A stretch of DNA of 36,787 nucleotides from Thiotrichaceae bacterium (lineage in GTDB: Bacteria; Pseudomonadota; Gammaproteobacteria; Thiotrichales; Thiotrichaceae): contig WFWY01000013.1 of the NCBI GenBank assembly GCA_015490895.1, positions 1-36,787 of the forward strand. The letters run 5' to 3'. How positions within the stretch are numbered: the first letter of the stretch is position 1; every line of letters starts with the position of its first letter. The notes under the pieces were generated by a model. The model saw nothing but the letters and a program-made list of their open reading frames with translations, made no database searches and was not told where the DNA came from. A program made the position numbers and the translations under genes. This document shows positions 5,982 to 8,914 of the stretch, in pieces.

Positions 5982-5997
5982 GAGAATTAGAGAATTG

Positions 5998-6675
5998 ATG
6001 AAAGTACAGTCATGGTTTGTATATATGGTGCGTTGTACGGATGGTAGCCTTTATACCGGTATTACCACAGAGCTAACGCGACGGGTTGCTGAGCATAATT
6101 CTGATAAAGCCGCACGCTATACCCGCTCACGTCAGCCTGTTACGCTGGTATACTACGAGCGAGCGGCATCACGATCTGTTGCCAGCCAGCGTGAATTTAT
6201 TATTAAGAAATTGAAAAAGAAACAAAAAGAGATATTGATAATGACCCAGTTCCTAAAAAAAACAGAGCAAGCGTTTAATCCGAATGACCCTTGTCTCTTT
6301 TGCCATCCAAGGCGTGATGAGATAATTCTGGAAACGGAACATGCACTGTTAATCAAAGATAGCTTTCCGGTTAGTCCCGGTCATTGTCTGGTGGTTCCAC
6401 GTCGCCATATTGCGACCGTCTTCGAGGCTTCTGAAGCAGAAAACCAGGATTTTTATTATTTGATTGGAGAGGCAAAAAAGCATATTGAAAAAACACAGAG
6501 CCCGGATGGTTATAACCTGGGCTGTAATAATGGAGAGGCTGCAGGGCAAAGTATTTTTCATCTGCATATGCATATTATCCCCCGTTATAAAGGGGATGTG
6601 GATAATCCCAAGGGGGGCGTGCGTTGGGTTGTGCCGAAAAAAGCTAGCTATCAGTTGCCGGAAGTGGCTCGTTGA
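5998..6675 (+). CDS. GIY-YIG (YhbQ-like) / HIT-family fusion protein
   Basis: One uninterrupted frame of 225 codons carries two domains usually found as separate proteins. Residues about 5-80 are a UPF0213-type GIY-YIG nuclease domain (FVYMVRCTDGSLYTGITT, RRVAEHN, ASQREFIIKKLKKKQKE). Residues about 82-225 are a HIT nucleotide hydrolase/transferase with PCLFCHP, SPGHCLVVPRRHIATVFE and the histidine triad HLHMH at 188-192. The first domain ends exactly where YhbQ-like proteins end. The HIT part has its own ATG at 6241 with a weak AAAGAGA upstream, so a separate HIT product by internal initiation is possible. A TTG at 5995 precedes the chosen ATG. It is the last gene of the operon. Confidence 0.85.
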   Translation: MKVQSWFVYMVRCTDGSLYTGITTELTRRVAEHNSDKAARYTRSRQPVTLVYYERAASRSVASQREFIIKKLKKKQKEILIMTQFLKKTEQAFNPNDPCLFCHPRRDEIILETEHALLIKDSFPVSPGHCLVVPRRHIATVFEASEAENQDFYYLIGEAKKHIEKTQSPDGYNLGCNNGEAAGQSIFHLHMHIIPRYKGDVDNPKGGVRWVVPKKASYQLPEVAR

Positions 6676-6960
6676 GTGGGGTGGACAAGAAAGACTTCAA
6701 CCTAAAATCCTCAGTTGGACCGGGTAGAGTGTGCGGCTATGGTGGTGTAGGGCAAGGTGTAATTGCGTGGAATAGTCATTTTTTCAATCAGTTACAAAGA
6801 AGGTATGCATCATCACAGATTGTGCAATCTGCCTGGTAGCGATCTCACCGATTGAGTGAGGCCTGAATAAGCACTATGTTCATGTGAAATCATAAGCTTG
6901 ATATTGACTCACAGCGGTCAACTGAGGAATTTAGGTTCAATATAACCATCCATATAGCCA
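6676..6960. other. gene-free spacer after the GIY-YIG/HIT gene
   Basis: No open frame with recognisable content occurs on either strand, and no terminator with a clear T-tract follows the GIY-YIG/HIT stop codon. There is an imperfect dyad TTGAC-N8-GTCAA at 6904-6921. Its spacing is wrong for an FNR/CRP site. I see nothing else to annotate here. Confidence 0.5.
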
Positions 6961-7056
6961 TAAAAAAGCCCGCTGGCAAGAGCGGGCTTGTTTGTGGTAG
7001 ACAGTGGTTTGTCTCCACACATCCTCCTAACGGTTAGGGGATCCTTTGGCATATTA
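6961..7056 (-). ncRNA. candidate small RNA, possibly FNR-activated
   Basis: On the minus strand, a TATATT -10 box (7068-7063) behind an FNR-type palindrome predicts transcription starting near 7056-7052. The strong terminator at 6962-6989 would end it, giving about 90-95 nt. Within it, 6993-7019 forms a second hairpin (TGTGG/CCACA plus GACA/TGTC arms, six-base loop). The 5' part is largely single-stranded and contains several GGA motifs (around AGGATC, AGGAGGATG and TGGAGAC on the minus strand). No protein family explains it. This layout, an FNR site, a short transcript and an intrinsic terminator, parallels E. coli FnrS in logic, not in sequence. A plain pheA 3' UTR is the alternative. Confidence 0.45.
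6962..6989 (-). terminator. rho-independent terminator (minus strand)
   Basis: There is a perfect 9-bp stem, AAGCCCGCT at 6966-6974 with AGCGGGCTT at 6981-6989, closing a 6-base loop. On the minus strand it is followed by a run of six T (AAAAAA at 6962-6967 on plus, partly in the stem). It faces away from pheA and would end either the long pheA 3' UTR or the candidate small RNA. The plus-strand tail (gtttg) is weak, so it acts mainly on the minus strand. Confidence 0.85.
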
Positions 7057-7062
7057 TTAACT

Positions 7063-7100
7063 AATATAGCCATAGTCCCCCCTAATTTGACTTATGTCAA
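7063..7100 (-). promoter_or_regulatory. FNR/ANR-type box with -10 element (minus strand)
   Basis: TTGACTTATGTCAA at 7087-7100 is a perfect dyad TTGAC-N4-GTCAA, matching the FNR/Anr consensus architecture TTGAT-N4-ATCAA. On the minus strand, TATATT (7068-7063) lies so that the dyad centre (7093.5) falls about 38-41 bases upstream of the expected start, which is class II activator spacing. An embedded TTGACA could also act as a -35, with GACTAT 17 bases on. The only thing downstream on this strand is the candidate small RNA and its terminator. No plus-strand gene starts within 2 kb. Confidence 0.5.
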
Positions 7101-7161
7101 CAAACTAAAACATAGGATAATATTACAATATTCTAATATACTTTTTGTTATCGCGGGCTCC

Positions 7162-8250
7162 TCAGGGAATAGCATTGGGGTAAGAACCCAGTACTTTTAA
7201 CAGGTCAGCTTGCTGCTCCAGCTCCTGCAATGCTTCACGTACAGGCTTGTCTTCAGCATGGCCCTTAATATCAAGGAAAAAAACATAATCCCAGTTACTG
7301 TTACGGGAGGGGCGAGATTCGATTCTGCTCATATCCAGGCCGTGATTTGCCAGTGGTTTAAGCAAATTAAATAAAGAGCCTGGCTCATTTTTGGCAGAAA
7401 TCATTAATGAGGTTTTGTCACGCCCGCTGGGGGGAACCTGCTGGTCACCAATAACCATAAAGCGCGTTGTATTATTGGCCATATCTTCAATATGTTTCTG
7501 GCGAACCGGCAAGGCATAGATTTCTGCTGCTGCGGTGCCGGCTATCGCCGCAGAGGTGTCATCCTCGCTTGCCATGCGGGCGGCTTCGGCATTGCTGGAG
7601 ACGGGGATGAGCCGGGCATGAGGTAGATGCCGGGAAAGCCAGTTTTTACATTGTAACAAGGATTGCTGGTGAGAGTAGATACGCTCAATAGTTTGCCAGT
7701 CTTCTTTTAGTGACATCAGGTTTTGATGGATGGGAAGCTGCACTTCGCCACAGATTTTTAAGCGTGAATTAATGAACATGTCCAGTGTGTGAGTGATGAC
7801 GCCACCCGTGGAGTTTTCGATAGGGATGATGCCATAGTGAGCACGTCCGGTATCAACCTCCTGAAAGACCTGGTTAATGGACTCTTGCGGCAGGCTGATC
7901 ACCCAGTTGCCAAAGTGCTTATTGACAGCGCTCTGGGTAAATGTGCCTTCAGGTCCAAGGTAGGCAACTTTCAGACATTCTTCCAGCGCCAGGCAGGAGG
8001 AGATGATATCGCGGTATATTTTGGTGATATGTTCATCCTTTAAGGGGCCGGAGTTATTTGCAACCATTCTCCTGAGGATCTGTGCCTCTCGCTCGGGACG
8101 GTAGAAACATACAGATTCTGTATCTTTACTGCTTGCACGCTTGGCAATAGCGACTTCTTCGGCGCAACGCGCCCGTTCGTTGAGTCGTTGTAGCACTTCA
8201 GTATCCAGTGCATCAATGCGTTGGCGTAATTGCAACAGTTTATCCGTCAT
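7162..8250 (-). CDS. pheA: bifunctional chorismate mutase / prephenate dehydratase (P-protein)
   Basis: This 362-residue cytoplasmic enzyme converts chorismate to prephenate and then to phenylpyruvate, committing carbon to phenylalanine. Residues about 3-90 are an AroQ chorismate mutase (LRQRIDALDTEVLQRLNERA, YRPEREAQILRR). Residues about 97-275 are prephenate dehydratase (VAYLGPEGTFTQSA, IPIENSTGG, NNTTRFMVIG). About 285-360 is an ACT regulatory domain (SLMISAKNEPGSLFNLLKPL, ESRPSRNSNWDYVFFLD), implying phenylalanine feedback. The ATG at 8250 is chosen because MTDKLLQLRQRID is the usual P-protein start; a longer frame to 8334 runs into the upstream gene. It overlaps the thioredoxin-HEAT stop by 11 bases. 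Its own terminator may be the hairpin about 170 bases downstream. Confidence 0.95.
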   Translation of the reverse strand: MTDKLLQLRQRIDALDTEVLQRLNERARCAEEVAIAKRASSKDTESVCFYRPEREAQILRRMVANNSGPLKDEHITKIYRDIISSCLALEECLKVAYLGPEGTFTQSAVNKHFGNWVISLPQESINQVFQEVDTGRAHYGIIPIENSTGGVITHTLDMFINSRLKICGEVQLPIHQNLMSLKEDWQTIERIYSHQQSLLQCKNWLSRHLPHARLIPVSSNAEAARMASEDDTSAAIAGTAAAEIYALPVRQKHIEDMANNTTRFMVIGDQQVPPSGRDKTSLMISAKNEPGSLFNLLKPLANHGLDMSRIESRPSRNSNWDYVFFLDIKGHAEDKPVREALQELEQQADLLKVLGSYPNAIP

Positions 8251-8914
8251 GGTTGTCTTCCAGTGTCTGGGCTGTGGACAGTGCTTGTAAACTTTCTGCA
8301 GCGACTTCACGAACCTCGGCATCTTCATCGTCAAGGCGATGCTGTACTACGGGGATAGCCTGCTTGCTTTGGGTAAGTCCCAGGTAATGCAAGGCATCGG
8401 CGCGAATACGCGGGTCGTTATGCTCGGTGAGTTGAGTGAGGGCGGGGATCTGTTGCTGAAGCAACGGAGTGGCGGCGAATTCCTCCATAATAACGCCAAT
8501 GCCGATACGTGTACTCAATACGGTTGCAGGGTCTCCCAATAGCTCCAGAATGACAGAAATAGCGCTGTTGTCTCGCTGAAGCTGTTCAATCACCTTCGAC
8601 ACCTTGCCATTAGAGAGCAGAAAATCAAATTCTCCGGCACGTGAGGAGTCTCTGGCTGACCACTGGATGCGCTGTCGAAAAGCTTCTATGTCCTGGGCGC
8701 CGGTCAGGACATAAGTGCCAATCTTTACCCAGGGTACAGAGCGAGCTCCCAGAGACCGGGCTTCTTCCGGGTGCTGTTCCATATTGGTGATTTGCAAGCG
8801 CCCAAGCTCTCCCGACTTGACCAGATCGGTCAGCTGTTTGAGTACACCTGGACAATGCGGACAGTGAGTACCCAGCAACATAATGGCATCAGGAGGGGTA
8901 TGAGGAACGGTCAC
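8240..8914 (-). CDS. thioredoxin-fold / HEAT-repeat fusion protein
   Basis: This is a 224-residue protein without a signal peptide. Residues about 8-85 look like a thioredoxin/glutaredoxin fold with a redox motif CPHC at 18-21 and a cis-proline region SVPW around 60, followed by VLTGAQ. Residues about 120-215 contain HEAT-type helical repeats (NDPRIRADALHYLGLTQSKQ, DDEDAEVREVAAESLQALS). A cytoplasmic thiol-disulfide role on a bound partner is a reasonable inference; the partner is unknown. It overlaps bamE by four bases upstream and pheA by 11 bases downstream, so the three are one transcription unit despite unrelated functions. Confidence 0.8.
   Translation of the reverse strand: MTVPHTPPDAIMLLGTHCPHCPGVLKQLTDLVKSGELGRLQITNMEQHPEEARSLGARSVPWVKIGTYVLTGAQDIEAFRQRIQWSARDSSRAGEFDFLLSNGKVSKVIEQLQRDNSAISVILELLGDPATVLSTRIGIGVIMEEFAATPLLQQQIPALTQLTEHNDPRIRADALHYLGLTQSKQAIPVVQHRLDDEDAEVREVAAESLQALSTAQTLEDNHDG

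Follow-up and report, generated by a model that had tools for sequence, protein, structure and literature searches.

A candidate small RNA with a conserved FNR-type dyad, restricted to one uncultured genus of Thiotrichaceae

Introduction

FnrS, from Escherichia coli and its relatives, is a short intergenic RNA that ends in a terminator and whose promoter carries an FNR-type site. It is activated by FNR from a site centred at -42.5; most FNR-activated E. coli promoters have sites centred near -41.5, and the sites of FNR-repressed promoters range from upstream of the -35 element to beyond +1 (PMC3688515). A site between -35 and -10 has been called incompatible with activation, and at the cld promoter an activator works with a weak -10 element (PMC7349173). 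PhrS of Pseudomonas aeruginosa, a 213-nt RNA with a 37-codon frame that is induced in low oxygen (PMC9308961), is likewise a small RNA tied to an FNR-family regulator (Anr) and has a short conserved, presumed pairing site. In Thiotrichaceae, regulatory RNAs appear hardly described: a full-text literature search combining the family name with 'small RNA' found nothing related.

We analysed a window comprising positions 1–36,787 of contig WFWY01000013.1 (GCA_015490895.1), from a Thiotrichaceae bacterium, in which a structured small RNA, activated by FNR or Anr when oxygen is low, had been predicted downstream of pheA (the original prediction). The prediction likened this RNA to FnrS in architecture only, and the likeness goes that far and no further. 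Both are short, terminator-ended intergenic RNAs with an FNR-type site at the promoter, but the present RNA comes from a different order of Gammaproteobacteria, has no Rfam match, and carries its site on the -35 element and spacer or after the start. Instead of the class II position (about -41.5), the site centre falls at -37.5 relative to the -10 originally proposed, or at -28.5 or +9.5 relative to conserved promoter elements. PhrS resembles the present RNA in its tie to an FNR-family regulator, here putative, and in its short conserved, presumed pairing site; the present RNA differs in length (~100–140 nt), in having no conserved reading frame and probably in the sign of control, since repression by FNR, if true, would reverse the regulation known from the familiar FnrS and PhrS. 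A conserved small RNA with an FNR-type operator would give access to the post-transcriptional control of sulfur bacteria living under fluctuating oxygen.

Structure of the small-RNA gene

On the minus strand, between the pheA stop (7162) and a MITE-like repeat (6696–6940), the order of elements is an AT-rich block, the dyad, a core hairpin, a second hairpin and a terminator. The pheA gene and the features of the RNA itself are as follows:

7162–8253, minus strand: pheA (chorismate mutase/prephenate dehydratase; NCBIfam prephenate dehydratase and CM_P2), the same-strand upstream neighbour in four of five carriers
6962–7049, minus strand: conserved body of the small RNA, supported by folding, a covariance model and alignments
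7021–7042, minus strand: core hairpin AUCCCCUAACCGUUAGGAGGAU (also written ATCCCCTAACCGTTAGGAGGAT), in which one A is bulged; no other element is as well conserved
6993–7019, minus strand: second hairpin UGUGGAGACAAACCACUGUCUACCACA; homologues have a hairpin of different sequence at the same place
6962–6989, minus strand: intrinsic terminator with a 9-bp stem and a T-run (stem-loop 6989–6966, then TTTT to 6962)

The segment 7056–6958 folds with -37.1 kcal/mol, compared with -22.2 ± 2.8 kcal/mol for its shuffles (z = -5.35), none of which folded equally well. With its own promoter block and its conservation in relatives, this bears out the predicted structured, terminator-ended RNA, and we consider a minus-strand small-RNA gene very probably real. 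All the elements named in the original prediction, namely the dyad (7100–7087), TATATT (7068–7063), one hairpin (7019–6993) and the terminator (6989–6962), are present on the minus strand; the first and most conserved hairpin (7042–7021) had been missed.

This core hairpin is exact or near-exact in four genomes (G000, G003, G004 and G005) and occurs as a variant in G001. Its consensus, UCCCCUARCCGNWAGGAGG, is nearly invariant among homologues, and the sequence is kept on both strands; such constraint suggests pairing with another RNA or contact with a protein. In hairpin 2 and the terminator stem, by comparison, sequence drifts across homologues while pairing is retained, as in the changed yet paired terminator stems AAGCCCGC/GCGGGCUU, AUAGCCCAC/GUGGGCUAU and AAGCUCAUCAUA/UAUGAUGGGCUU. 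Formal covariation is modest, because only two of the 20 pairs in an RNAalifold analysis of four sequences show changes on both sides. An intrinsic terminator with a U-run is found in all five homologues. We also considered a small protein starting from the GUG after UUAGGAGG and rejected it; the reading frame is not conserved, since hairpin 2 differs by 2 nt in length between G000 and G003 and is replaced by an unrelated hairpin in G004 and G001.

Conservation and distribution

The promoter block, core and terminator occur together in five of six genomes of the same Thiotrichaceae genus (G000, G001, G003, G004 and G005), the relatives being uncultured Thiotrichaceae metagenome-assembled genomes. 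The unit lies directly downstream of pheA in four carriers and beside aroB in G001. BLAST yielded a 77% match in G003 spanning promoter and RNA, and a core match in G005, both directly after pheA. At the pheA 3' side of G004 stands a more diverged copy carrying UCAUCCCCUAACCGCUAGGAGG; its hairpin 2 and its terminator (AUAGCCCAC...GUGGGCUAUUUUUU) are peculiar to it. The sequence on the pheA 3' side of G001 and G002 contains no copy, and the absence from G002 is uninformative because that genome is 69% complete. Near aroB, G001 carries an AT-rich block and TTGACATTGATCAA, followed by the core AUCCCCAACGCUAGGUGGAU, then a hairpin and an eight-T terminator; this unit (L011 1825–2060, G001:C24) is flanked by aroB and a radical-SAM gene, not by pheA. 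What G001 has in common with the other carriers runs from promoter to terminator and excludes pheA, so the unit appears to be an independent gene.

Searches of Rfam at both thresholds brought no family to its gathering score; the weak matches did not include FnrS. When a covariance model built from three seed loci (R1) was run against 63 family genomes, only the seed loci scored high (91–103 bits), and the remaining matches (≤31 bits) resembled generic terminators or coding sequence. The weak R1 match in G004 could be told apart as genuine only by its position next to pheA, and the G001 copy aligned poorly with the other homologues. The core was absent from the 57 other family genomes, which are all those sampled of the order. 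Matches to a relaxed core within the family had TTGAC upstream and a terminator downstream only at the four small-RNA loci that fit the pattern. The core pattern was scanned in 369 genomes of the class; the 366 sampled from outside the family gave one isolated match, with one mismatch and without the architecture. Across 84,980 species, the core appeared outside the genus only in two contigs, of Chloroflexi and Clostridiales respectively, and the architecture was missing from both. These matches outside the genus (L096, L097 and L113) were dismissed as chance, since they have neither promoter nor terminator. Judged by the genomes sampled, the predicted RNA is restricted to one uncultured Thiotrichaceae genus and belongs to no described family, which makes it a lineage-restricted small RNA of an ordinary kind.

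Promoter geometry and the FNR-type dyad

The region upstream of the conserved body holds the following elements:

7109–7136, minus strand: candidate promoter P2, TTAGAA (7136–7131), N16, TATGTT (7114–7109); predicted start ~7102, RNA of ~141 nt
7087–7100, minus strand: FNR-type dyad TTGACATAAGTCAA; the left half plus the next base reads as the consensus -35 element TTGACA
7072–7100, minus strand: candidate promoter P1, TTGACA (7100–7095), N17, GACTAT (7077–7072); predicted start ~7065, RNA of ~104 nt
7063–7068, minus strand: TATATT, the -10 element of the original prediction, starting 18 nt past the dyad, whose centre then lies at -37.5; absent from the relatives

The pattern TTGAYN4RTCAA occurs exactly once in the 36.8-kb window, at the dyad, and genome-wide at 22 sites versus four for a reversed control pattern. 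Across the five homologues the dyad is conserved as TTGAC-N4-RTCAA, the right half reading GTCAA, GTCAT, GTCAA, ATTAA and ATCAA and the four central bases varying. The genome encodes, on contig C87, a four-cysteine FNR-like protein, with a CxxCx5C motif plus one more Cys and a recognition helix containing ETLSR, whose best NCBIfam model is Fnr (E = 4e-63, just under that model's curated cut-off). A conserved FNR-type site and an encoded FNR protein thus occur together, as in an FNR regulon. On sequence grounds the dyad is likely a site for an FNR-type protein, and it is reasonably probable that such a protein uses it; the binder need not be FNR itself, because six other Crp/Fnr-type proteins are encoded. 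The original proposal of FNR control is supported as regards site and protein, and not supported as regards the activating arrangement, as follows.

Class II spacing had been claimed for TATATT, which lies 18 nt after the dyad and scores 6.8 bits in the window versus -0.9 to -6.0 in the four relatives, none of which carries it. At ~22 nt after the dyad, the -10 position for a centre at -41.5, the window reads TTAGTT. A -10 element at 20–23 nt from the dyad is missing in the window and not conserved among the five homologues; hexamers with A2/T6 at 21–23 nt are found only in G003 and G001, and the G004 core starts 21 nt after the dyad, which would place a class II start within the core. We then added up the -10 scores of the five homologues, allowing ±1 nt, and compared the sums with 500 shuffles. 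The summed score did not exceed -0.4 at class II spacing, reached 17.4 at 8–12 nt past the dyad (shuffle fraction 0.014) and was highest in the region, at 27.3, 14 nt before the dyad (shuffle fraction 0.002; 0/500 at zero tolerance), although these fractions are not probabilities, because shuffles ignore relatedness.

The upstream maximum is the P2 hexamer, the best-conserved -10-like hexamer (TATGTT, TATATT, TATAAT, TATGTT and AATATT in the five homologues); the corresponding -35 element is poor in G004 and G001. For P1, an A2/T6 hexamer lies 8–10 nt after the dyad in each of the five homologues, that is, 16–18 nt after TTGAC(A/G), and the -10 in the window is weak (3/6). The dyad centre would lie at about -28.5 relative to P1 and about +9.5 relative to P2, positions that are repressing or neutral and speak against the low-oxygen activation originally proposed. 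A protein bound on the P1 -35 element and spacer, or just after the P2 start, would block polymerase; given binding, repression rather than activation is therefore probable.

Discussion

We weighed these results as a whole and find an even chance that the locus is an independent, genus-restricted small RNA with one or two sigma-70-type promoters and FNR-type repression, probably acting in trans with Hfq. Minus-strand transcription would start from P2 (TTAGAA-N16-TATRTT) and/or P1 (TTGACA-N16–18 plus a weak -10), both of sigma-70 type, and would stop at the RNA's own terminator near 6962. An FNR/Anr-type regulator bound at the dyad would most likely block RNA polymerase, so that the RNA would be produced under oxygen and silenced in its absence.

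The closest competitor keeps the sigma-70 promoters and dispenses with FNR: the dyad would be mainly a -35 hexamer, its right half incidental or part of a 5' RNA hairpin (UUGAC-AUAA-GUCAA). In its favour, TTGAC(A/G) does not vary among the five homologues and stands at a suitable place for a -35 element in each, and the right half of G004 has degenerated to ATTAA. Against it, the right half-site persists in four homologues, the translocated G001 copy among them, and the G-to-A change in G001 suits the FNR consensus and would break a pair of the RNA hairpin; we hold this reading to be rather unlikely, if a serious one. The originally predicted class II activation by FNR/Anr, with the RNA on in low oxygen, can draw on the conserved dyad, the FNR gene, the good TATATT in the window and the fact that activators can use a weak -10, as at the cld promoter (PMC7349173). 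It is hard to reconcile with a spacing of 18 rather than ~22 nt and with the distribution of -10 hexamers described above, and appears unlikely.

A reading without a separate gene, in which the hairpins belong to pheA as its 3' UTR and terminator and may yield a processed 3'-UTR RNA, is very unlikely. The hairpins do follow pheA directly on the same strand in four genomes, and in the sequence of G000, G003 and G005 no clear terminator lies between them and pheA, but in G001 the promoter block, core and terminator stand apart from pheA, and G004 has a terminator-like hairpin and TTTT after the pheA stop. An RNA that sequesters CsrA/RsmA, suggested by the four GGA motifs of the window copy, seems least plausible of all, to the point of near-dismissal: like RsmX/Y/Z and CsrB-type RNAs the window copy has several GGAs, but here they lie mostly in stems, three of the four are missing in G004, where one is kept, and there is no Rfam match. 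A CsrB/RsmZ-type sponge, with conserved loop-exposed GGAs, was accordingly rejected, and with it the originally proposed binding of RsmA/CsrA.

For the favoured repressed, trans-acting RNA, a putative partner protein is encoded. Hfq (PF17209) is encoded in five of the six genus genomes, which are all five near-complete ones, the sixth being 69% complete. U-run terminators are typical of Hfq-bound small RNAs, and two features expected of an Hfq-dependent small RNA, such a terminator and a host-encoded Hfq, are present in the sequence. The C-rich strand of the core hairpin, AUCCCCUA, could base-pair with G-rich ribosome-binding sites on target mRNAs, and AUCCCCUAACC may be the seed for target pairing. 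The simplest form of this idea, the target pattern GTTAGGGGA before ATG, gave no excess over control and no gene common to the genomes. A more specific version, which we regard as speculative and improbable, has FNR silence the RNA when oxygen is absent, inversely to FnrS, while the invariant hairpin combines an anti-RBS C-rich strand with an RBS-mimicking G-rich strand, UUAGGAGGAU; opening the hairpin could expose both.

Three further observations concern the surroundings. Another FNR-type site, TTGATTTATGTCAA (L102, G000:C22:23439-23452), occupies the gap within a divergent gene pair, one member of which encodes a DsrC/TusE-like protein. The gap, described as gene-free in the original prediction, also contains the MITE-like element at 6696–6940, 245 bp long, with 22-bp terminal inverted repeats (91% complementary) flanking 201 nt; it has 13 matches in its own genome and 12 in G003, at ~80% identity, and its ends alone occur by the dozen in G005. 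Finally, 5995–6675 of the window is one open frame, with a GIY-YIG-nuclease-like N-terminus and a HIT-family hydrolase, which may be a fusion or two in-frame genes with an internal start.
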